A DNA stretch of 64,000 bases from Streptomonospora salina (GTDB taxonomy: Bacteria > Actinomycetota > Actinomycetes > Streptosporangiales > Streptosporangiaceae): assembly GCF_014204715.1 (NCBI RefSeq), contig NZ_JACHLY010000001.1:1054001-1118000 (forward strand). Direction: 5' to 3'. The notes below the pieces were generated by a model. That model was not told where the DNA came from. It did no database searches and saw nothing but the letters and a program-made list of their open reading frames with translations. How positions within the stretch are numbered: the stretch's first letter is position 1; each line of letters begins with the position of its first letter. Of the stretch, positions 21,749 through 32,438 are shown one piece after another. A program made the translations under genes and the position numbers.

Positions 21749-22330
21749 TCAGTCCTCGGGGCGCACCACCGGGCGGTGGACGACCTCGTCGATGACCGTG
21801 AGGGTCTGGGTGGCGGTGACGCCCGGAAGCGCCTGCAGCCGGGTAAGGATCAGATCGCGCAGCTGGTCGGTGTCGGCCACGCGCACGAGGAGCACGATAT
21901 CGGCCGATCCCACCACGTACCAGCAGTACTCGACCTCGGGGTAGGAGGAGAGTACTTCGCGGTTGGCCCGCCAGTCGGGCTGACTGCCGGAGATGAGTAC
22001 CAGCGCGGTGACGCCCAGGCCCATCCGGGCGTGGTCGGCCACCACGGAGTATCCGCGGATGACGCCGTCGTCGGTGAGCCGTTTGATGCGGTTGTAGGCG
22101 GTCGCGCGCGACACGTTGGCCATGCCCGCGATCTCGGTGATGCCGGTGCGGGCGTCGTCGGCGAGCGCGCCGATGATGATCTCGTCGGTGGCGTCGGGAA
22201 GCCGCCGGGAGCGGCGCCGGGTGCGCTCGCCGTCCGCGCCCGCCGACGAGGGCCGCAGGGACTTCGTGCGTCGGGATTCCGCGGCGTCCTGCGGGCGCCC
22301 GCTCTCCTGCGACTGCTGGCCGTCGGCCAT
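21749..22330 (-). CDS. Lrp/AsnC family transcriptional regulator
   Basis: Residues about 60-110 form the winged HTH (ITEIAGMANVSRATAYNRIK), preceded by a basic, probably disordered tail. The C-terminal RAM ligand-binding domain is VEYCWYVVGSADIVLLVRVA to LQALPGVTATQT. 193 residues from ATG 22330, with AGGAG 11 nt upstream. It is divergent from the 22536 gene and the 2-oxoacid dehydrogenase operon at 23142. BkdR-type Lrp proteins often sit next to and control branched-chain keto-acid dehydrogenase genes, so that operon is its likely target (inference). Confidence 0.85.
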   Translation of the reverse strand: MADGQQSQESGRPQDAAESRRTKSLRPSSAGADGERTRRRSRRLPDATDEIIIGALADDARTGITEIAGMANVSRATAYNRIKRLTDDGVIRGYSVVADHARMGLGVTALVLISGSQPDWRANREVLSSYPEVEYCWYVVGSADIVLLVRVADTDQLRDLILTRLQALPGVTATQTLTVIDEVVHRPVVRPED

Positions 22331-22535: not shown

Positions 22536-22895
22536 ATGCCCATCTCGCCCGAGGTCCGCGAGCGCGCACGGGGCTTCCTGCCGGCCGGTGCCCGCATCCG
22601 CTACATCTTCCCCGCGTCGTGGAACGAATCGAGTTTCTTCGTGGTGGTGGTGACCGACTCCGCGGTGACCGTGCTGGTGAACCGGCTGTGGAGCCGGAAC
22701 CGCCCGAAGGGCGTCTGGCGCGTGTTCCCGCGCCAGGTGCGCATCGGCCCGGTCGACACCCACCTCATTCCCACGTTCCACCTCGGCGGCAGCACGTTCG
22801 AGGTCGACGACGAGTACGTCTCGGTCGTCAACGCCTGCGACGCCGAACTGGACGGCGCGGCCGCGCTTCCGCAGGACCCGCTGCCCGACCTGTGA
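22536..22895 (+). CDS. Conserved small protein of unknown function
   Basis: 119 residues with a strong ribosome binding site (AGGAGG). The sequence IRYIFPASWNESSFFVVVVT, TVLVNRLWSRNRPKGVW and DEYVSVVNACDAELDG suggests a compact beta-rich fold. No catalytic motif, membrane segment or signal peptide is seen. I cannot assign a family; a PH-like domain is only a guess. It lies between the divergent Lrp gene and the E1 alpha gene. The 246-nt stretch after it (22896-23141) includes an AT-rich part around 22985-23090 that probably holds the promoter of the dehydrogenase operon. Confidence 0.7.
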   Translation: MPISPEVRERARGFLPAGARIRYIFPASWNESSFFVVVVTDSAVTVLVNRLWSRNRPKGVWRVFPRQVRIGPVDTHLIPTFHLGGSTFEVDDEYVSVVNACDAELDGAAALPQDPLPDL

Positions 22896-23141: not shown

Positions 23142-24170
23142 ATGCTGACCCGCGAGGATCCCCCTCGGCTGGACGGCCCCGCGCTGCCGGCCGAGCTGTC
23201 GCGCCGCCTGTACCGGACGATGCTCACCGCACGGCTGCTGGACACCGAAGCCGTGGCCCTGCAGCGCCAGGGCGTCTTTCCCGCCTACGTCTCGCTGCGC
23301 GGCCAGGAGGCCGCCCAGGTGGGCAGCGCGGCCGCCATGGACCCCCGCCGCGACTTCGCGTTCCCCACCTACCGCGAGATGGCCGTCGCGCTGGCGCTGG
23401 GCGTGGACATGGCCGGCTACATGGCCAGCCACCGCGCGCTGTGGCACGGCGGCCTGTACGACCCCGCGGCTTCGCGCTTCGCGCCGGTCAACGCCGTCGT
23501 CGGCGGCCCCGTCCCGCACGCCGTGGGCTGGGCGCTGGGCGAGAAGCTGGCCGGGCGCACCGGCTGCGCGGTGTCCTACTTCGGCGACGGCGCCAGCTCC
23601 GAGGGCGACGTGCACGAGGCGATGAACCTCGCCGGCGTCATGAGCGCACCCGTGGTGTTCGTGTGCCAGAACAACCGGTGGGCCCTGTCGGTGCCCAACG
23701 AGCACCAGATCGCGGGCGGGTCGGTGGCCGCGCGCGCCGCCGGCTACGGCATGCCCGGCACCGCCGTCGACGGCGACGACGCCGCGGCGGTCTACACCGC
23801 CGTGCGCGAGGCGCTGGACCGCGCCCGCGCCGGCGGCGGGCCCAGCCTGGTCGAGGCGCTGACCTACCGGGCCGCACCGCACTCCACCTCCGACGACACC
23901 TCCCGCTACCGCGACCCCGGCGAAGAGCGCGCCGGAGAGCGGCGCGACCCGCTGCCCCGTGCGCGCGCCGCGCTGGAGGCGGCCGGGCAAGCCGACGCCG
24001 CGTTCTTCGAGCGGGCCGAGGCCGAGGGCCGCGCCGAGGCCGAGCGCATCCGCGACGCCGTCAGCACGACTCCCGAGCCGGACGGTTCGGACCTGTTCAC
24101 CCACGTCTACCGCGAACCCACCGAGGAGCTGGCCCGCCAGCGCCGCGTCTGGCAGGAGGAAGTCGCATGA
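23142..24170 (+). CDS. 2-oxoacid dehydrogenase E1 component, alpha subunit (branched-chain or acetoin type)
   Basis: Thiamine-diphosphate subunit that decarboxylates a 2-oxoacid (or acetoin). The ThDP motif GDG-x(n)-NN is FGDGASSEGDVHEAMNLAG near residue 147 to VFVCQNNRWALSVP. YRAAPHSTSDDTSRYR carries the conserved phospho-loop and histidine. 342 residues. SD GGGAGG. It overlaps the beta subunit as ATGA. The neighbouring Lrp gene favours a branched-chain substrate, while the downstream split lipoyl/hydrolase pair recalls acetoin dehydrogenase, so the substrate is unresolved. Confidence 0.88.
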   Translation: MLTREDPPRLDGPALPAELSRRLYRTMLTARLLDTEAVALQRQGVFPAYVSLRGQEAAQVGSAAAMDPRRDFAFPTYREMAVALALGVDMAGYMASHRALWHGGLYDPAASRFAPVNAVVGGPVPHAVGWALGEKLAGRTGCAVSYFGDGASSEGDVHEAMNLAGVMSAPVVFVCQNNRWALSVPNEHQIAGGSVAARAAGYGMPGTAVDGDDAAAVYTAVREALDRARAGGGPSLVEALTYRAAPHSTSDDTSRYRDPGEERAGERRDPLPRARAALEAAGQADAAFFERAEAEGRAEAERIRDAVSTTPEPDGSDLFTHVYREPTEELARQRRVWQEEVA

Positions 24171-25192
24171 GCCCGACCGCCGCCGTCGCGTCCGGAGCCG
24201 CCGAGGCGCCCGCCGCACCGGCCACCATGCGCGAGGCGCTGAACCTGGCGCTGGACGAAGCGCTGACCGAGGACCCGGCGACCCTGGTCTTCGGCGAGGA
24301 CGTGGGCCGGCTCGGCGGCGTCTTCCGCGTGACCGAGGGGCTCCAGCGGCGCCACGGCGAGCACCGCGTCTTCGACACCCCGCTGTCCGAGGCGGCGATC
24401 GCGGGGATGGCCGTCGGGCTGGCGATGAACGGCCGGCGCCCCGTACCCGAGCTGCAGTTCGACGGGTTCGCTTACCCGGCCATGGATCAGATCGTCAATC
24501 AGATCGCGCGGATGAACTACCGCTCGCGCGGTGCCGCCCCGATGCCGATCACGCTGCGGATTCCGAGCTTCGGGGGCATCCAGGCGCCCGAGCACCACGG
24601 CGAGAGCCTGGAGGCGGCCTTCGCCCACGTACCCGGGCTGAAGGTGGCCGCGCCCTCCGACGCACCCGACGCCTACCGCCTGCTGCTGCAGTCGGTGCGC
24701 AGTGACGACCCGGTGGTGTTCCTGGAACCCAAGGCACGCTACTGGGACCGCAGCCCGGCCCCCGCCGGCGCGGACTCCGGCGGGGACCCGGCGGTGGGCA
24801 CCGCCCGTGTGGTGCGCTCGGGCCGCCACGCCACGCTGGTCGCCTGGGGTGCGATGGTGCACCGCTGCCTGCAGGCGGCCGAAGCCGCCGCCGAGGACGG
24901 TGTGCAGCTGGAGGTTGTGGACCTGCGCTGGCTCAAGCCGATCGACGCGGCCGGTCTGGCGGAGTCGGTGCGCCGCACCCGGCGCGCGGTGGTGGTCCAC
25001 GAGGCCCCGCTGACGGCGGGTCTGGGCGGCGAGGTCAGCGCGCTGATCACCGAAGGGGCGTTCGCGCGGCTGGCCGCTCCGGTGCAGCGGGTCGCCGGGT
25101 TCGACGTGGTCTACCCCGCGGGCCCGCTGGAACCGCAGTACCTGCCCACGGTGGACCGCATCCTGTCGGCGGTGCAGCGGACTTTCGGCTGA
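24167..25192 (+). CDS. 2-oxoacid dehydrogenase E1 component, beta subunit
   Basis: 341 residues forming the alpha2beta2 E1 with the preceding gene. Family blocks visible are FGEDVGRLGGVFRVT, FDTPLSEAAIAGMAVGLAM, ELQFDGFAYPAMDQIVNQIA, LEVVDLRWLKPIDAAGL and VVVHEAPLTAGLGGEV. Compared with close relatives it has an extra Ala-rich N-terminal tail of about 20 residues. Start ATG 24167 overlaps the alpha stop; the lipoyl gene follows after 14 nt. Confidence 0.9.
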   Translation: MSPTAAVASGAAEAPAAPATMREALNLALDEALTEDPATLVFGEDVGRLGGVFRVTEGLQRRHGEHRVFDTPLSEAAIAGMAVGLAMNGRRPVPELQFDGFAYPAMDQIVNQIARMNYRSRGAAPMPITLRIPSFGGIQAPEHHGESLEAAFAHVPGLKVAAPSDAPDAYRLLLQSVRSDDPVVFLEPKARYWDRSPAPAGADSGGDPAVGTARVVRSGRHATLVAWGAMVHRCLQAAEAAAEDGVQLEVVDLRWLKPIDAAGLAESVRRTRRAVVVHEAPLTAGLGGEVSALITEGAFARLAAPVQRVAGFDVVYPAGPLEPQYLPTVDRILSAVQRTFG

Positions 25193-25206
25193 GGGGGATT
25201 CGAGCG

Positions 25207-25551
25207 ATGACGACGAGCGAGACGACGTTCCACCTTCCCGACCTGGGCGAAGGGCTGGTCGAGGCGACCGTGCTGGAGTGGCTGGTCGGGCCCGGCGAGC
25301 GGGTGGAGCGCAACGGGCCGCTGGTGGAGGTCGAGACCACCAAGTCGGCGGCGGAGATCCCTTCTCCGCACAGCGGCGTGGTCGCGCGCCTGCACGCCGA
25401 GGAGGGCGAAACGGTGGCCGTGGGGGCGCCGCTGGTCACCTTCGAGATCGAGGAGGAGGCGGCGGGGATCGTCGGCACGGTGCCCGGCGAAGAGGCGCCG
25501 GCGCGCCGGCGCGTCCGGCTCACACCGCCCGAGGACGAGCCGGGATCGTGA
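25207..25551 (+). CDS. Free-standing lipoyl-domain protein
   Basis: 114 residues. Residues 7-82 are one lipoyl/biotinyl domain: FHLPDLGEGLVEATVLEWLV, the lipoylation lysine in EVETTKSAAEIPSPHSG (Thr-Lys-Ser in place of the common Asp-Lys-Ala) and VAVGAPLVTFEIEE. A short charged tail follows and the gene stops. The peripheral subunit-binding and acyltransferase domains of a normal E2 (over 400 residues) are absent and no such ORF follows. It may therefore act as a swinging arm for E1 with a separate acceptor, or be the detached half of an AcoC-like protein. No E3 gene is in the window. Confidence 0.85.
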   Translation: MTTSETTFHLPDLGEGLVEATVLEWLVGPGERVERNGPLVEVETTKSAAEIPSPHSGVVARLHAEEGETVAVGAPLVTFEIEEEAAGIVGTVPGEEAPARRRVRLTPPEDEPGS

Positions 25552-25633
25552 TCCCGCCGCCGACCGAGACGCCCGCCCGGGACCGCGCGCACGCCGCGCC
25601 GGCCGCCCGGGGAGACCTGCGAAGGGACCGCCC

Positions 25634-26386
25634 ATGACCCGGCACACGCTGCAGCGCGAGGTTCCGCTGCGCTACACCCCTCCCCCGCCGGACGCCTCGG
25701 GCGTGCCGGTGCTGCTGGTGCACGGGTTCGGCTCGGACTACCGGCTGAACTGGGAGAGCACCGGTTGGACGCGCGCGCTGGAAGGCCTGCCGGTCTTCGG
25801 CTGCGATCTGCGCGGGCACGGTGGCAGCGGAAAGCCGCACGACCCGGCGGCCTACTCCCTCGACGCCTTCGTCGGCGACCTGGAGGCCCTGCTGGACGCG
25901 CTGGGCATGGCCCGCGCCGATGTCGTGGGCTACTCGCTGGGCGCGCGGCTGGCCTGGGAGCTGGCGGTGCGCCGGCCGCAGCGGGTGCGCCGCGCGGTGC
26001 TGGCCGGGTTCGGGCCCCGCGACGCGTTCGCCGGCGCCGACCTGGACGATCCGGAGTCCGACACGTCGCCGTTCGGGCAGGTCTATCGCGCCGCGGCCGC
26101 ACTGCCCGGAGGCGACGCGGCGGCGCTGGCGGCGTGTGCGCGCGGGCAGGCCGCCCGCCCGTTCTCCGCCGCGCCGGCGCCCGCGGGGATCCCGGCGCTG
26201 CTGCTGGCCGGCGAACGCGACGAGTTCGCCGACGGCGCCGAGGACCTCGCCCGCGCGGTGGGCGGGACGGCGCTGCGGGCGCCCGGGCGCGACCACCGCA
26301 CCGCCGTGGCGGCCCGGCGCCTCAAGAACGCCGCGGTGGACTTCCTCGGCGCCGAAGCGGGTGCGCCGTCCCGGACGCCGACGTGA
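25634..26386 (+). CDS. Alpha/beta hydrolase fold protein
   Basis: 250 residues. Oxyanion region LLVHGFGSDYRLNW near residue 30; nucleophile elbow VVGYSLGARLAW with serine near residue 98; acid in LLLAGERDEFAD; histidine in GRDHRTAVA. The catalytic triad looks intact. Start ATG 25634 has GAAGGGA 7 nt upstream. It follows the lipoyl gene by 82 nt in another frame. In acetoin dehydrogenase AcoC an N-terminal lipoyl domain is fused to such a hydrolase domain, so the two genes may together play the E2 role. A thioesterase or unrelated esterase is the alternative. Confidence 0.8.
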   Translation: MTRHTLQREVPLRYTPPPPDASGVPVLLVHGFGSDYRLNWESTGWTRALEGLPVFGCDLRGHGGSGKPHDPAAYSLDAFVGDLEALLDALGMARADVVGYSLGARLAWELAVRRPQRVRRAVLAGFGPRDAFAGADLDDPESDTSPFGQVYRAAAALPGGDAAALAACARGQAARPFSAAPAPAGIPALLLAGERDEFADGAEDLARAVGGTALRAPGRDHRTAVAARRLKNAAVDFLGAEAGAPSRTPT

Positions 26387-26707: not shown

Positions 26708-27778
26708 GTGAACAAGCGAGCCGCCAAGCTCGCCTCCGCTACCGCGGCAGGCGTGCTGACCCTGGCCTTGACGGCCTGTGACAACCCCGAAGGCGGGGAC
26801 GCCCAGGGCGACGGCGGAGGCGGAGGCGACGACGGGATCCGCGTCGGCCTCGCTTACGACGTCGGCGGTCGGGGCGACAAGTCGTTCAACGACTCGGCCT
26901 ACCGGGGCCTGCAGCAGGTCGAGGAGGAGCTGGGCATCAGCTCCGACAACATCCAGGATTTCGAGCCCAGCGAGGGCGAGTCGGACGTCGACAAGGAAGA
27001 ACGCCTCAAGAACATGGCCGACCAGGGCTTCGATGTGATCATCGGGGTGGGCTTCGCCTACACCCAGCCGATGATCAACGTGGCCGGCGAGGACGCCTAC
27101 TCCGACGTCGACTTCGCCATCGTCGACTCCGAGATCACCGACCAGGACAACGTCACCAGCCTGGTCTTCGCCGAAGAGGAGGCCTCCTACCTGGTCGGCG
27201 CGGCAGCCGCGCTGAAGACCGAGGAGGACCACATCGGCTTCGTCGGCGGTGTCGAGACCCCGCTGATCCACAAGTTCGAGGCCGGATACGTGGCCGGGGC
27301 GCAAGAGATCAACCCCGATGTCGAGATCGAGACCGCCTACCTCACCCAGCCGCCGGACATGAGCGGCTTCTCCGACCCGGCGACGGGCCGCAGCACCGCC
27401 CAGGGCCAGCTGGACCAGGGCGCCGACGTCATCTACCACGCGGCGGGCGCCTCCGGTAACGGCGTGCTCGAAGCGGTGGCCGGCGCCGAGAAGATGTTCA
27501 TCGGCGTCGACAGCGACCAGTACAAGACGGCCCCCGAGGATCAGAAGCAGTACGTGATCACCTCGGCGGTCAAGCGCGTGGACACCGCGGTGTTCGAGTT
27601 CGTGGAGTCGGTGCAGAACGGCGAGGCGCAGTCGGGTATCCAGCGCTTCGACCTCGCCAGCGGCGGCGTCGGCTACTCCACGTCCAACGAGGACGCGATC
27701 TCCGACGTGCAGGACCGTCTCGACGAGCTCAAGCAGCAGATCGTCGACGGCGAGATCGAGGTCCCGAGCGAGCCCTGA
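26708..27778 (+). CDS. BMP family nucleoside-binding lipoprotein
   Basis: Substrate-binding lipoprotein of a nucleoside ABC importer. Signal peptide with lipobox LTAC (Cys at about residue 24), then a Gly/Asp-rich linker. The BMP domain shows IRVGLAYDVGGRGDKSFNDS, DVIIGVGFAYTQPMINVA, IGFVGGVETPLIHKFEAGY and KMFIGVDSDQYKTAPEDQK. 356 residues. GTG start chosen for its ribosome binding site. The next three genes encode the ATPase and permeases, separated by two strong hairpins that may let the binding protein be made in excess. Confidence 0.92.
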   Translation: MNKRAAKLASATAAGVLTLALTACDNPEGGDAQGDGGGGGDDGIRVGLAYDVGGRGDKSFNDSAYRGLQQVEEELGISSDNIQDFEPSEGESDVDKEERLKNMADQGFDVIIGVGFAYTQPMINVAGEDAYSDVDFAIVDSEITDQDNVTSLVFAEEEASYLVGAAAALKTEEDHIGFVGGVETPLIHKFEAGYVAGAQEINPDVEIETAYLTQPPDMSGFSDPATGRSTAQGQLDQGADVIYHAAGASGNGVLEAVAGAEKMFIGVDSDQYKTAPEDQKQYVITSAVKRVDTAVFEFVESVQNGEAQSGIQRFDLASGGVGYSTSNEDAISDVQDRLDELKQQIVDGEIEVPSEP

Positions 27779-27833
27779 GGCGCGAAGGCTAAGGTGGTCC
27801 CGCACAGCCGGGCCCGCCCGGCCGCAGACGCCC

Positions 27834-27873
27834 CGTCACCGGGGTCCGGAAAGGTTTCCGGGCCCCGGTGACG
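27834..27873 (+). terminator. Strong intercistronic hairpin (attenuator) after the BMP lipoprotein gene
   Basis: 19-bp stem with one G-U-type mismatch: CGTCACCGGGGTCCGGAAA (27834-27852) and TTTCCGGGCCCCGGTGACG (27855-27873) around a GG loop. It lies 55 nt after the lipoprotein stop. Partial termination or 3'-end mRNA protection would raise binding-protein levels over permease levels. Confidence 0.65.
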
Positions 27874-27896
27874 CGATCCACACCTCCCCCAGCTCC

Positions 27897-27939
27897 GCCG
27901 CCGGCGGCCGCGCGTTCGCGCGCAACGGCCGCCGGCGGC
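27897..27939 (+). promoter_or_regulatory. Second intercistronic hairpin just before nupA-type gene
   Basis: Perfect 14-bp stem GCCGCCGGCGGCCG (27897-27910) / CGGCCGCCGGCGGC (27926-27939). Its 15-nt loop can form a further CGCG-TTCG-CGCG mini-stem. It ends 25 nt before the ATPase ATG, just ahead of the AGGAG ribosome binding site, followed by CTGATTTT. It could be a terminator or a translation-control structure. Confidence 0.5.
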
Positions 27940-27964
27940 CTGATTTTCGCCAGCTAGGAGTCGG

Positions 27965-29539
27965 ATGAGCAGCGCACCGTCCGGCGGCGGGGAGGAACCT
28001 CCCGCCGTCGAGCTGCGTGGGATAACCAAGAGGTTCCCGGGGGTCGTGGCCAACCACGACATCGATATCGCCGTGGGCTCCGGAACGGTCCACGCCATCG
28101 TGGGTGAGAACGGCGCCGGCAAGTCCACGCTGATGAAGACCCTCTACGGCATGCACCGGCCGGACGAGGGCACCATCGCCGTCCAAGGCGCGGAGGTGCG
28201 GCTGGGCTCCCCGTCCGAGGCCATCAAGCACGGCATCGGCATGGTGCACCAGCACTTCATGCTCGCCGACAACCTCACCGTGCTGGAGAACGTGGTGCTG
28301 GGCGCCGAGCGCCGCAGCGGCATCGGCCAGGGCGCGCGGGCCCGCATCGGGGCTCTGTCCGAGCAGTACGGGCTGGGTGTGGAGCCCGACCGGCTGATGG
28401 AGGAACTGGGGGTCGGCCAGCGCCAGCGCGTCGAGATCCTCAAGGTGCTCTACCGCGGCGCCGGCATCGTCATCCTGGACGAGCCCACCGCGGTGCTGGT
28501 GCCCCAGGAGGTCGACGAGCTGTTCGACAACCTGCGCGAGCTCAAGCGGGAGGGCCTGACGGTCATCTTCATCTCGCACAAGCTCGACGAGGTGCTGTCG
28601 GTGGCCGACACCATCACCGTCATCCGCCGCGGGACCACGGTGGCCACCGTCGACCCGGGCGGCACGACCGCCCGCGAGCTGGCCACTCTGATGGTCGGCG
28701 GCGAGCTCCCCGTGCCCGAGCTGCGCGATTCCACGGTCACCGACCGACCGATGCTGGAGGTCGGCGGCCTGCGGGTGGGCGACCCCGGCGGCCGGCCGGT
28801 CGTCGACGACGTGTCGCTGAACATCCGCGAAGGCGAGATCGTGGGCATCGCGGGGGTCGAGGGCAACGGCCAGTCCGAACTGATCGAGGCCGTCATGGGC
28901 ATGCTGCCGGTGGAGGCCGGGAGCGTGCGGCTGGACGGCGGCGACATCACCGGTTGGGACACGCTGGCGATCCGCGAGGCGGGGGTCGGCTACATCCCCG
29001 AGGACCGGACCCGCCACGGGATGCTGCTGGAATCCCCCCTGTGGGAGAACCGCATCCTCGGCCATCAGGGCGAGCGCCCCAACTCCCGCGGCATCTGGGT
29101 CGACCGCGCCGGCGCGCGCGCCGACACCGAGCGGATCGTGGCCGACTACGACGTGCGCACCCCCGGCATCGACGTCATCGCCGAGGCGCTCAGCGGCGGC
29201 AACCAGCAGAAACTGATCGTGGGGCGCGAGATGAGCGGCGGCCCCAAGGTGCTGGTGGCGGCCCATCCCACCCGGGGCGTGGACGTGGGGGCCCAGGCGG
29301 CGATCTGGGAGCACCTGCGGCGGGCGCGCGGCGACGGGCTCGCCGTGCTGCTGGTCTCGGCGGATCTGGACGAGCTGATCGGCATGTCCGACACGCTGCA
29401 CGTCATTCTGCGCGGCCGACTGGTGGCGGAGGCCGACCCGATGACGGTGACGCCCGAAGAACTGGGTGCGGCGATGACCGGTGCCGGTCTGCGCGACGAC
29501 GCCGGCGGTACCGGCGGTGAAGGCGAGGGCGGCGAATGA
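27965..29539 (+). CDS. Nucleoside ABC transporter ATP-binding protein (two ABC domains)
   Basis: 524 residues with two tandem ABC domains, as in the NupA/RbsA group. First domain: Walker A VGENGAGKSTLMKTLYG near residue 38, ABC signature in ELGVGQRQRVEILK, Walker B IVILDEPTAVL. Second domain: degenerate P-loop VGIAGVEGNGQSELIEAVMG, signature EALSGGNQQKLIVGRE. The incomplete second P-loop is normal for this family. AGGAG precedes the ATG. It overlaps the next gene by ATGA. It powers uptake of the nucleoside delivered by the BMP lipoprotein. Confidence 0.92.
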   Translation: MSSAPSGGGEEPPAVELRGITKRFPGVVANHDIDIAVGSGTVHAIVGENGAGKSTLMKTLYGMHRPDEGTIAVQGAEVRLGSPSEAIKHGIGMVHQHFMLADNLTVLENVVLGAERRSGIGQGARARIGALSEQYGLGVEPDRLMEELGVGQRQRVEILKVLYRGAGIVILDEPTAVLVPQEVDELFDNLRELKREGLTVIFISHKLDEVLSVADTITVIRRGTTVATVDPGGTTARELATLMVGGELPVPELRDSTVTDRPMLEVGGLRVGDPGGRPVVDDVSLNIREGEIVGIAGVEGNGQSELIEAVMGMLPVEAGSVRLDGGDITGWDTLAIREAGVGYIPEDRTRHGMLLESPLWENRILGHQGERPNSRGIWVDRAGARADTERIVADYDVRTPGIDVIAEALSGGNQQKLIVGREMSGGPKVLVAAHPTRGVDVGAQAAIWEHLRRARGDGLAVLLVSADLDELIGMSDTLHVILRGRLVAEADPMTVTPEELGAAMTGAGLRDDAGGTGGEGEGGE

Positions 29540-30972
29540 GGATCCCCTACGGCCCGCCGGCGGTTGCCGGTGCGGCGGCCGTGGTCGGCGCGGGCGTCAC
29601 CGCGGCCGCCGATACGGGCCTGCTCGCGCCCGCTGCGGCGGCACTGGGCGTGGCGGCGGCCTTCGCCGTTGCGGTGCTGACGACCCGGCCCACCACCGAC
29701 GATGCCGACACGCGCATGCACCGGTTGCTGGTCGCCCCCATCGCGCTGGTACTGGCCGTGGTCCTCGGCCTGCTGGCGGGCGGGATCGTCGACTGGTGGC
29801 TGATCGAGCCGGCCGCCTACCCGCTGGGCGGGGCGATCGGCTCGGTGGCGGCGTTCCTGCTGTACCGGCGGCTGTCGACCACGCTGGCGCTGTCGTTCGG
29901 TGCCGTGGTGGCGGCCGGCGTGCTGGCGCTGGCGGTGACCGCGCTGGTGCTCCGGATCAGCGGCGTCGCGCCGTTCCACGCGTTCAGCCGGATGCTGGAG
30001 TTCGGGCTGCGGCCCGACAGCCTGGTCATCATGGTCAACTCCGGCACGACCTTCTACCTGTCGGCGGTGGCGGTGGCGATCGGCTTCAAGATGAAGCTGT
30101 TCAACATCGGCGTGGACGGCCAGTACCGGCTGGCGGCGCTGATGGCCGCGGCGGTGGGCGGCTACTGGGTGATGCCGCCGGTCGTGCACCAGATCGTGGT
30201 CATGGCGGTCGCGGTGGCCGTCGGCGGCGTCTGGGCGGGCATCGCCGGATACCTGAAGGTGGCCCGCGGCGTCTCCGAGGTGATCTCCACGATCATGCTG
30301 AACTCGGTGGCTACCGGCATCACCGCCTACATGCTCAACACCGACCGGCTGGCCGTGCAGATCAGCACCAACAACATCGGCACACCCGAGATCCCGGAGT
30401 CGGGGTGGATCCCCGGCATTCCCGCCGGGTTCATGGGCGCCGACCGCGACATCTTCGGGCTGGTGGTGCTGGCGGCCCTGGTGGGTGTCGGCTACTGGCT
30501 CATGCTCAACCGCACCCGGTTCGGCTTCGACCTGCGCGCCACCGGTCAGTCGCCCACCGCGGCACGGGCCAGCGGCATCGACATCAAGCGCATGGTGCTG
30601 CTGTCGATGGTCATCTCCGGGATGATCGCCGGGCTGGTGGGCATGCCCCAGCTGCTCGGCCAGTCCCACTACTACGCCCTGGACTTCCCCACCGGCATCG
30701 GGTTCACCGGCATCGCGATCGCGCTGCTGGGGCGCAACCACCCGGTGGGCATCGCGTTCGCCGCACTGTTCTGGGCGTTTCTGGACCAGTCCAGCCAGAT
30801 CCTGGACTTCGAGGGCATTCCCAAGGAGATCGCCGTGGTCACCCAGGCCACCATCGTGCTGACCGTGGTCGTGGTGTACGAGGTCGTGCACCGCTGGGGT
30901 CTGCGCTACCAGCAGCAGCAGGTCGGCCGGGAACTGGCCCGCGGCGAGCGTGAGGAGGCGGCGGCGTCATGA
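29536..30972 (+). CDS. Nucleoside ABC transporter permease (NupB/YufP type)
   Basis: 478 residues, about 10-12 membrane helices. The N-terminal ~110 residues add two to four extra helices before the conserved core. The core shows FKMKLFNIGVDGQYRLAAL, ISTIMLNSVATGITAYML, FGFDLRATGQSPTAARASGI and GFTGIAIALLGRNHPVGIAF, all typical of the branched-chain/nucleoside permease family. The stop overlaps the second permease start (ATGA). Confidence 0.9.
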   Translation: MRIPYGPPAVAGAAAVVGAGVTAAADTGLLAPAAAALGVAAAFAVAVLTTRPTTDDADTRMHRLLVAPIALVLAVVLGLLAGGIVDWWLIEPAAYPLGGAIGSVAAFLLYRRLSTTLALSFGAVVAAGVLALAVTALVLRISGVAPFHAFSRMLEFGLRPDSLVIMVNSGTTFYLSAVAVAIGFKMKLFNIGVDGQYRLAALMAAAVGGYWVMPPVVHQIVVMAVAVAVGGVWAGIAGYLKVARGVSEVISTIMLNSVATGITAYMLNTDRLAVQISTNNIGTPEIPESGWIPGIPAGFMGADRDIFGLVVLAALVGVGYWLMLNRTRFGFDLRATGQSPTAARASGIDIKRMVLLSMVISGMIAGLVGMPQLLGQSHYYALDFPTGIGFTGIAIALLGRNHPVGIAFAALFWAFLDQSSQILDFEGIPKEIAVVTQATIVLTVVVVYEVVHRWGLRYQQQQVGRELARGEREEAAAS

Positions 30973-32438
30973 GCCAGGATCTGACGGTCACCGAGGCCCC
31001 CGCGGCCGCCGGCGGCCGGCGCGGCGGCCGGTCGCGGTGGCGCTTCGTCAGCGTCGCCCTCGCGGCGTTCGTCGCGCTGGCGGGGGTGCGTGCCATCGCC
31101 GACCAGCCGATGCTGACCAGCCCCGGCACCATCCAAGCGACGCTGGCGTTCGCGGTGCCGATCGGGTTGGCCGGGCTGGGCGGGGTGTGGGCCGAACGCG
31201 CCGGGATCATCAACATCGGCCTCGAAGGCATGATGGTGCTGGGCACCTGGTTCGGCGCCTACTTCGCCTTCACCTTCGACGACCCGTGGGCGGGGCTGGT
31301 CGCCGGCGTGCTGGGCGGCATGGCCGGCGGGCTGATCCACGCGGTGGCCACGGTGACGTTCGGCGTGGACCACATCGTCTCGGGCGTGGCGATCAACATC
31401 CTCGCCGTGGGCGCGATGCGCTACCTGTCGCTGCTGTTCTTCGTCGACACCCCCGGCGGGGGCGCGGCCCAATCGCCGCAGCTTCCGGAGTTCCCGCAGG
31501 TGGGGCTGCCGTTCGTGGCCGATGCGCTGGCACCGGTGCGCGATTCGGGCGTCTTCCTGCTGGCCGACACCGCCTCGCTGGTCACCGGGCTGACGACGGG
31601 CATGTCGGTGGTGACGCTGCTGGCGATCCTGCTGGCGCCGCTGACGTTCGCGGTACTGTGGCACACCCCGTTCGGGCTGCGGCTGCGTTCGTGCGGGGAG
31701 AACCCTGACGCCGCCGAGTCGCTGGGTGTTCCGGTCTACGCCTACAAGTTCACCGCGGTGGTGTTCTCCGGCGGGTTCGCCGGCATGGGCGGGGTCTTCC
31801 TCGCGATGGTGGCCTCGTCGGTGTACCAGGAGGGCCAGACCGGCGGGCGCGGCTACATCGGCCTCGCCGCCATGATCTTCGGCAACTGGCGGCCGGGCGG
31901 GCTGGCGATGGGCGCCGGGCTGTTCGGGTTCACCGACGCGCTCCAGGTGCGCGGCGGCGGTGGCGCGGTGCACGCGCTGCTGCTGCTGATCGCGCTGGCG
32001 CTGCTGGCGGGCGCGGCCGCCGTGCTGGCGGCGGCGGCCTGGCGCACGCGCGGCACCGCCGGCTTCGCCCGCGTGGCCGGCGTCGGCGGCGTGTTCGCCG
32101 CGGGCACCGCGCTCGCCGCGGTCGGCGGCGCGGCGGCGGCCACCGGCGCCGCCTGGTGGTGGGCCGCCGCGGCACTGGGCGCGGCCGCGGGTGCGGCCGC
32201 GGCGGTGCGGGCGCTGCGCGCATGGCCCGCGGCGGCCGGCAAACCGCCGGTGTCGGCGGTGGCCGCGGCGGCCGCGGGCGTCCTGGTACTGGTGTGGTAC
32301 TTCGCCACCGACGCGCTGCCCGGCCAACTGGTCACCTACAGCCCGCACATCGCGACGCTGCTGGTGCTGGCGCTGGCGTCCCAGCGCCTGCGCCCGCCGG
32401 CGAACGTGGGCCGGCAGTGGCGCAAGGGGCGCGCGTGA
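30969..32438 (+). CDS. Nucleoside ABC transporter permease (NupC/YufQ type) with extended C-terminus
   Basis: 489 residues. Core signature: ERAGIINIGLEGMMVLGTW, FGVDHIVSGVAINILAVGAM, LRSCGENPDAAESLGVPVYA and GRGYIGLAAMIFGNWRPGGL. After the core (about residue 325) there is an Ala-rich, hydrophobic extension of some 150 residues predicted to form about four or five more helices, much longer than in Bacillus-type homologues. It forms the membrane channel with the previous gene. The stop is 165 nt before the cytidine deaminase gene. Confidence 0.88.
   Translation: MSQDLTVTEAPAAAGGRRGGRSRWRFVSVALAAFVALAGVRAIADQPMLTSPGTIQATLAFAVPIGLAGLGGVWAERAGIINIGLEGMMVLGTWFGAYFAFTFDDPWAGLVAGVLGGMAGGLIHAVATVTFGVDHIVSGVAINILAVGAMRYLSLLFFVDTPGGGAAQSPQLPEFPQVGLPFVADALAPVRDSGVFLLADTASLVTGLTTGMSVVTLLAILLAPLTFAVLWHTPFGLRLRSCGENPDAAESLGVPVYAYKFTAVVFSGGFAGMGGVFLAMVASSVYQEGQTGGRGYIGLAAMIFGNWRPGGLAMGAGLFGFTDALQVRGGGGAVHALLLLIALALLAGAAAVLAAAAWRTRGTAGFARVAGVGGVFAAGTALAAVGGAAAATGAAWWWAAAALGAAAGAAAAVRALRAWPAAAGKPPVSAVAAAAAGVLVLVWYFATDALPGQLVTYSPHIATLLVLALASQRLRPPANVGRQWRKGRA

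Follow-up and report, generated by a model that had tools for sequence, protein, structure and literature searches.

A candidate 2-oxoacid dehydrogenase architecture in actinomycetes that pairs E1 with a discrete lipoyl protein and a stand-alone serine hydrolase

The E2 acyltransferase core defines 2-oxoacid dehydrogenase complexes and fixes their product as an acyl-CoA; within this family, the chemistry of E1 and the reductive acylation of the lipoyl arm are well established. Here, we describe a locus of Streptomonospora salina (contig NZ_JACHLY010000001.1, positions 1,054,001 to 1,118,000; this 64,000-nucleotide stretch is referred to below as the window) in which the genes for E1 alpha and E1 beta are followed by a free-standing lipoyl protein (LIP) and a separate alpha/beta hydrolase (HYD). 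These four genes are hereafter called the quartet.

Described systems resemble the quartet in different respects. The bkd and pdh operons of actinomycetes, which encode branched-chain keto acid dehydrogenase (BKD or BCKDH) and pyruvate dehydrogenase (PDH), contain the same E1 families (E1_dh, Transket_pyr, and Transketolase_C) in the same order, a lipoyl domain with an E2 linker motif and, as in Tsukamurella, a divergent Lrp gene; the quartet differs in an E2 cut to a lipoyl domain and linker stub, a hydrolase instead of the core, and a separate E1 clade. AcoABC (NF011457) likewise combines an E1 pair with a lipoyl domain and an alpha/beta hydrolase-type domain, but AcoC is a single fused protein where the quartet has two genes, and identities to the quartet are about 33% for E1 alpha, about 38% for E1 beta, and 37-40% for LIP. 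In the phenylglycine pathway of Streptomyces pristinaespiralis, the E1 alpha/E1 beta-like pair PglB/PglC has been assigned to phenylpyruvate (PMC7089894, PMC10685826), and the pgl operon carries a separate thioesterase, PglD (PMC7089894). This likeness of an E1-like pair in an operon with a thioesterase is one of published description; the proposed product is phenylacetyl-CoA, PglD acts later, on benzoylformyl-CoA, and no lipoyl protein is named in pglA-E.

Two further proteins resemble single members of the quartet. ABHD11 cleaves glutaryl-lipoyl on an E2 and displayed no glutaryl-CoA activity (PMC12643935), which provides a chemical precedent for the hydrolytic discharge of an acyl-lipoyl group. 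Like HYD, it is an alpha/beta serine hydrolase with a Ser-Asp-His triad, and the acyl-lipoyl cleavage known for ABHD11 is proposed here for HYD; however, ABHD11 is a human mitochondrial editing enzyme that acts on a complete E2 and is not encoded with E1. LbpA, from sulfur oxidation, is a free-standing single lipoyl-domain protein as well, but it resembles GcvH and accompanies Hdr-like genes (PMC6067878), whereas LIP is E2-derived and accompanies E1. No published description of the E1-LIP-HYD arrangement was found in open-access literature text, and generic annotation (E1 subunits, lipoyl protein, alpha/beta hydrolase) conceals it.

A conserved quartet without an E2 core

The quartet comprises the following genes, in window coordinates:

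23142..24170, + strand: E1 alpha subunit, a thiamine diphosphate (ThDP)-dependent 2-oxoacid decarboxylase of 342 residues (PF00676 E1_dh, 245 bits; TIGR03181, 372 bits, below its cutoff of 411)
24167..25192, + strand: E1 beta subunit, 341 residues (PF02779 Transket_pyr and PF02780 Transketolase_C)
25207..25551, + strand: LIP, free-standing lipoyl protein, 114 residues (PF00364 Biotin_lipoyl, the sole family above cutoff)
25634..26386, + strand: HYD, alpha/beta hydrolase, 250 residues (PF00561 Abhydrolase_1; triad Ser101/Asp196/His221)

Reading frames, Pfam matching, and triad residues confirmed the ATGA overlap of the E1 genes, the lipoyl-only protein of 114 residues, and the intact-triad hydrolase, all of which had been reported in an earlier, sequence-only reading of this DNA. 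That reading also noted that neither an E2 core nor an E3 follows. Locally this holds: no E2 acyltransferase core occurs in the 64-kb window or in 49 related loci, and no E3 is encoded in the window alongside the quartet. Elsewhere, however, the genome (5.6 Mb, 99.98% complete) contains both. Complete E2s are found in three other E1-E2 operons (contig C1 at 2.61, 2.99, and 4.66 Mb), and a SucB-type E2 lies at 0.67 Mb, immediately preceded by an E3 (C1, about 667,750) that was recognised by its GGTCLHVGCIPTK motif and not by a profile. A protein at 1.63 Mb combines an E2 core with a transketolase domain, the two-in-one layout of 2-oxoglutarate dehydrogenase. A full E2 elsewhere, named beforehand as grounds for doubting the set, thus does accompany the quartet in this genome; this is to be expected, because each of these E2s sits in its own operon.

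Conservation was examined in 121 genomes of the order, in surveys of the phylum (296 genomes) and class (394 genomes), and in named genomes scanned with the HYD alignment, which supply the clade names. Within the order, close homologues of LIP and HYD occur in the same 50 of 121 genomes, adjacent and on the same strand, and these genomes form one Nocardiopsis-type clade; a score gap separates them from the next matches (E 3e-35 to 9e-25 for LIP, 4e-62 to 7e-26 for HYD). All 49 loci fetched besides the window retain the order E1 alpha-E1 beta-LIP-HYD without a core, whereas 28 of 29 comparison loci contain one and the 29th ends at a contig edge. Lack of conservation of the hydrolase next to the lipoyl gene, also named beforehand as grounds for doubt, is thereby excluded. 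The E1 genes overlap by four nucleotides in 40 of the 49, and the gap between E1 beta and LIP is mostly 5-7 bp. Ratios of nonsynonymous to synonymous substitution (dN/dS) of 0.09-0.57 in five pairs indicate purifying selection on all four genes, HYD giving the highest values. A record named Glycomyces fuscus TRM 49117 (L241) also carries a Nocardiopsis-type quartet, with 57% identity in HYD; either a misnamed record or transfer of the set could explain this.

The named-genome scan returned Streptomonospora, Nocardiopsis, Marinactinospora, Murinocardiopsis, and relatives, and in addition whole quartets in Leifsonia (two), Diaminobutyricibacter, and a Microbacteriaceae metagenome-assembled genome. 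These four are 57-60% (E1 alpha), 69-70% (E1 beta), 66-76% (LIP), and 42-43% (HYD) identical to the window. The class survey adds a fifth quartet (genome G570), which we infer to be of Microbacteriaceae, as its family code is that of other Microbacteriaceae-like genomes. Across the five, LIP is 60-76% and HYD 39-43% identical to the window, and the flanking genes differ from those of Nocardiopsis-type loci. HYD is thus the most diverged member of the set yet still adjoins LIP, and this persistence is the strongest evidence that the two are functionally linked. The quartet is co-inherited as a unit in two distant actinomycete families.

Relationships of LIP, HYD, and E1

In LIP, PF00364 spans residues 7-78 and the lipoyl lysine, K46, lies within VETTKSA; Pfam matching found no subunit-binding domain and no acyltransferase core. 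In the predicted structure, residues 3-82 adopt a lipoyl-type beta fold in which K46 sits on a turn, and the tail is modelled with low confidence. The protein is 106-121 residues long in the 48 relatives whose LIP start could be set, and both K46 and the tail are invariant or nearly so. This tail (AGIVGTVP....RRVRLxPP), which follows directly on the lipoyl domain and recurs in the Microbacteriaceae proteins, can be aligned with the linker motif LVGYG/LVGSG...RR of two E2s from the same genome, in which the sequence continues past the motif to the core. Outside the clade, the best LIP matches in the phylum survey were complete E2s in 28 of 29 cases, the last ending at a contig edge. LIP matches Biotin_lipoyl and E2 models, with no GcvH family among the matches. 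By its sequence, LIP is a shortened E2, consisting of a lipoyl domain and linker stub from which the core has been lost. The concern that the gene might be a local truncation or pseudogene is excluded by its presence in all 49 fetched relatives and by its dN/dS of 0.09-0.37.

The triad of HYD (Ser101/Asp196/His221) is invariant in 49 sequences and is retained in the Microbacteriaceae proteins. Its predicted structure (predicted local distance difference test score, pLDDT, 95.6) has a serine-hydrolase fold. A structure search recovered the enol-lactonase 2XUA as best neighbor (Z 27.4) and the marine esterase 7C4D, which has been used to model ABHD11, at Z 24.1, level with many others; since only general hydrolase-fold neighbors were found, the search does not indicate a function. 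HYD-like hydrolases of 38-47% identity also occur in Alphaproteobacteria, Cryobacterium, and an Actinomadura (L274-L294, L297-L302), with no E1 or lipoyl genes near them within the fetched flanks.

In the E1 beta tree, the Nocardiopsis-type set forms a single clade (100/100) that branches within BKD-type E1 beta by a long stem, and AcoB is separated from the rest at 100/100. The hydrolase tree splits HYD and its near relatives from AcoC at 100/99, with long distances and a midpoint root. Because E1 beta and HYD fall outside the AcoB and AcoC groups, the suggestion that the locus is a split AcoC finds no support, though the quartet may work similarly. True AcoC proteins, scoring above the NF011457 cutoff, occur in 15 of the 296 phylum genomes, all of one family code; these are fused and have their own E1 pair. 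Sequence comparison assigns the quartet E1 to a distinct BKD-type clade and not to acetoin dehydrogenase. Set-specific E1 residues are common to both families and include a changed loop, PSFGGIQAPEHHGESLEA, in place of PYGGGIGAVEHHSESPEA in BKD. In the class survey, only the Nocardiopsis-type clade and G570 gave E1 beta matches above 460 bits, the best score elsewhere being 383 bits, and among the matches listed outside that clade none besides G570 exceeded 58% identity. Plasmid-borne relatives of E1 beta are all less than 60% identical, and the five that were read in context have ordinary full-length E2s.

Proposed reaction, substrate, and alternatives

The suggestion that the acyl group is released by hydrolysis or passed to another acceptor is a fair reading, as a conserved LIP and HYD stand in the place of E2. 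From knowledge of the family, E1 would decarboxylate a 2-oxo acid on ThDP and reductively acylate the lipoyl arm of LIP; the HYD triad would then cleave the acyl-dihydrolipoyl thioester with water, freeing the carboxylic acid, and the E3 encoded beside SucB would reoxidise the arm with NAD+. The net reaction would be 2-oxo acid + NAD+ + H2O -> acid + CO2 + NADH, with no CoA. The likeliest substrates would be phenylpyruvate, 4-hydroxyphenylpyruvate, and perhaps indolepyruvate, giving arylacetates under Lrp control. We assign a probability of roughly 0.45 to this reading, in which a serine hydrolase replaces the E2 core of a lipoyl-dependent 2-oxoacid dehydrogenase and hydrolysis yields a free arylacetate. 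The wider proposal is tentative and falls short of even odds: that E1, a discrete E2-derived lipoyl carrier, and a stand-alone serine hydrolase, held as a unit in two distant actinomycete families, constitute a new 2-oxoacid dehydrogenase architecture converting arylpyruvates to free arylacetates without CoA. If true, a lineage stably lacking the core but keeping the hydrolase would indicate that the lipoyl swinging arm can act as a free carrier ending in hydrolysis, and bacteria would be able to oxidise aromatic 2-oxo acids directly to aryl acetates. Discharge of an acyl-lipoyl arm without CoA would become a directly testable question using four small proteins.

Clues to the substrate come from gene context and co-occurrence. 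Among the Microbacteriaceae, one quartet (L364) adjoins HpaH, HpaI, an FAA hydrolase/RraA protein (HpaG-like), a GntR regulator, HpaE, and HpaD; another (L363) adjoins HpaD, an HpaE homologue, and an HpaG-like protein; and a third (L365) neighbors a convergent operon with a HisC/PRK03321-type aminotransferase and a TrpX-like ABC transporter (312 bits, cutoff 390). In Leifsonia, the quartet is followed by Lrp and an aldehyde dehydrogenase resembling succinate semialdehyde dehydrogenase. Within the order, all 50 quartet genomes have PaaA (phenylacetyl-CoA epoxidase), compared with 19 of the 71 others (Fisher p 1.5e-18, uncorrected for phylogeny), and a genome of the same genus that lacks the quartet (G067, genus g3) also lacks PaaA; PaaA does not require the quartet. 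Together, the genes of the 4-hydroxyphenylacetate (Hpa) pathway, the aminotransferase and TrpX-like transporter, and the joint occurrence with PaaA suggest aromatic 2-oxo acids as substrates. The Lrp association, from which branched-chain keto acids had been proposed as substrate, says only that the substrate is amino-acid-derived. Branched-chain substrates are less likely, given the aromatic contexts and the retention of an ordinary operon, at 2.99 Mb, whose E1 beta clusters with the order's BKD; with three other E1-E2 sets and an E3 in the genome, branched-chain acids are probably already served.

Several observations weigh against this hydrolytic reading. Hpa and transporter genes run convergently to the quartet, in no common operon with it, and aromatic neighbors are found in only three of five Microbacteriaceae genomes. 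HpaD occurs in every Microbacteriaceae-type genome tested, even though no quartet was seen in three of these, whereas of 24 Nocardiopsis-type genomes with the quartet that were tested, only 3 have it above its cutoff; it thus fails there as a general partner of the quartet, and the window's genome lacks it. The PaaA correlation derives mostly from one clade. Furthermore, acyl transfer is likewise carried out by proteins of the alpha/beta hydrolase fold, and if the product fed a phenylacetyl-CoA pathway, hydrolysis would be energetically wasteful, since the acid would have to be re-ligated at the cost of ATP.

The alternative that survives best, though we consider it unlikely, is that HYD is an acyltransferase, taking the acyl group from LIP onto its serine and passing it to CoA, as AcoC is annotated to do; phenylacetyl-CoA, for example, could then enter the Paa pathway directly. 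PglB/PglC are proposed to make phenylacetyl-CoA (PMC7089894), and the quartet genomes have PaaA, whose direct substrate is a CoA ester. LIP and HYD also each correspond to one half of the AcoC model NF011457, the top NCBIfam match of HYD and one that all 49 members match; however, the scores are 57 and 72 bits against a cutoff of 307, the HYD alignment covers only the N-terminal hydrolase part (residues 21-123), and HYD lies outside the AcoC group in the hydrolase tree. The Hpa context also counts against CoA transfer, as it requires the free acid.

Less probable still is a division of labor in which the core of a paralogous E2 accepts the acyl group from LIP in trans and HYD removes dead-end adducts as an editing thioesterase, a role that ABHD11 plays on lipoyl adducts (PMC12643935, PMC7426941). 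The genome does offer such cores, in its three further E1-E2 sets and the SucB-type E2, but LIP has neither a subunit-binding domain nor a core of its own, and the absence of the core in both families, with HYD kept directly after LIP, fits an obligate partner better than housekeeping editing. Transfer to a different acceptor, for instance an acyl carrier protein, or service to a branched-chain or other aliphatic keto acid, would accord with the Lrp association and the BKD-type E1 but is improbable, given that the genes identified next to the quartet include no acyl carrier protein or biosynthetic cluster and that the set-specific E1 residues, such as the changed loop, depart from BKD.

Neighboring genes and other E2-like loci

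The window contains the following further features around the quartet:

21749..22300, - strand: Lrp/AsnC-family regulator, divergent to the quartet (PF01037 and helix-turn-helix; start codon uncertain)
22536..22895, + strand: small protein of 119 residues between Lrp and E1 alpha, matching neither Pfam nor NCBIfam
26708-32438: BMP/PnrA-type ABC transporter operon, directly downstream of the quartet

Lrp is divergent upstream in every Nocardiopsis-type locus whose contig extends that far and is also divergent in G570, while it lies downstream in Leifsonia. The small gene is kept in a minority of related loci (Streptomonospora and several other genera), where it is 65-90% identical; it was not found in most Nocardiopsis loci and is at most a possible member of the set. 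Nearly all Nocardiopsis-type relatives have the BMP/PnrA-type operon after the quartet, but because it is missing beside the Microbacteriaceae sets, its position probably reflects synteny and not function.

Two other loci of the same genome were observed in passing. The genes at 4.66 Mb (L113, C1:4658000-4672000) form a second E1-E2 operon of BKD type, accompanied by a divergent Lrp that shares 45% identity with the window's Lrp; the E1 beta of this operon falls outside the order's main BKD clade. On a second contig, L115 (C2:124059-124793) encodes an E2-core-like protein in a 335-residue frame (PF00198, 53 bits; 68 with its neighbor) with no lipoyl-domain match nearby; it is a mirror image of the quartet, an acyltransferase core without a lipoyl domain.

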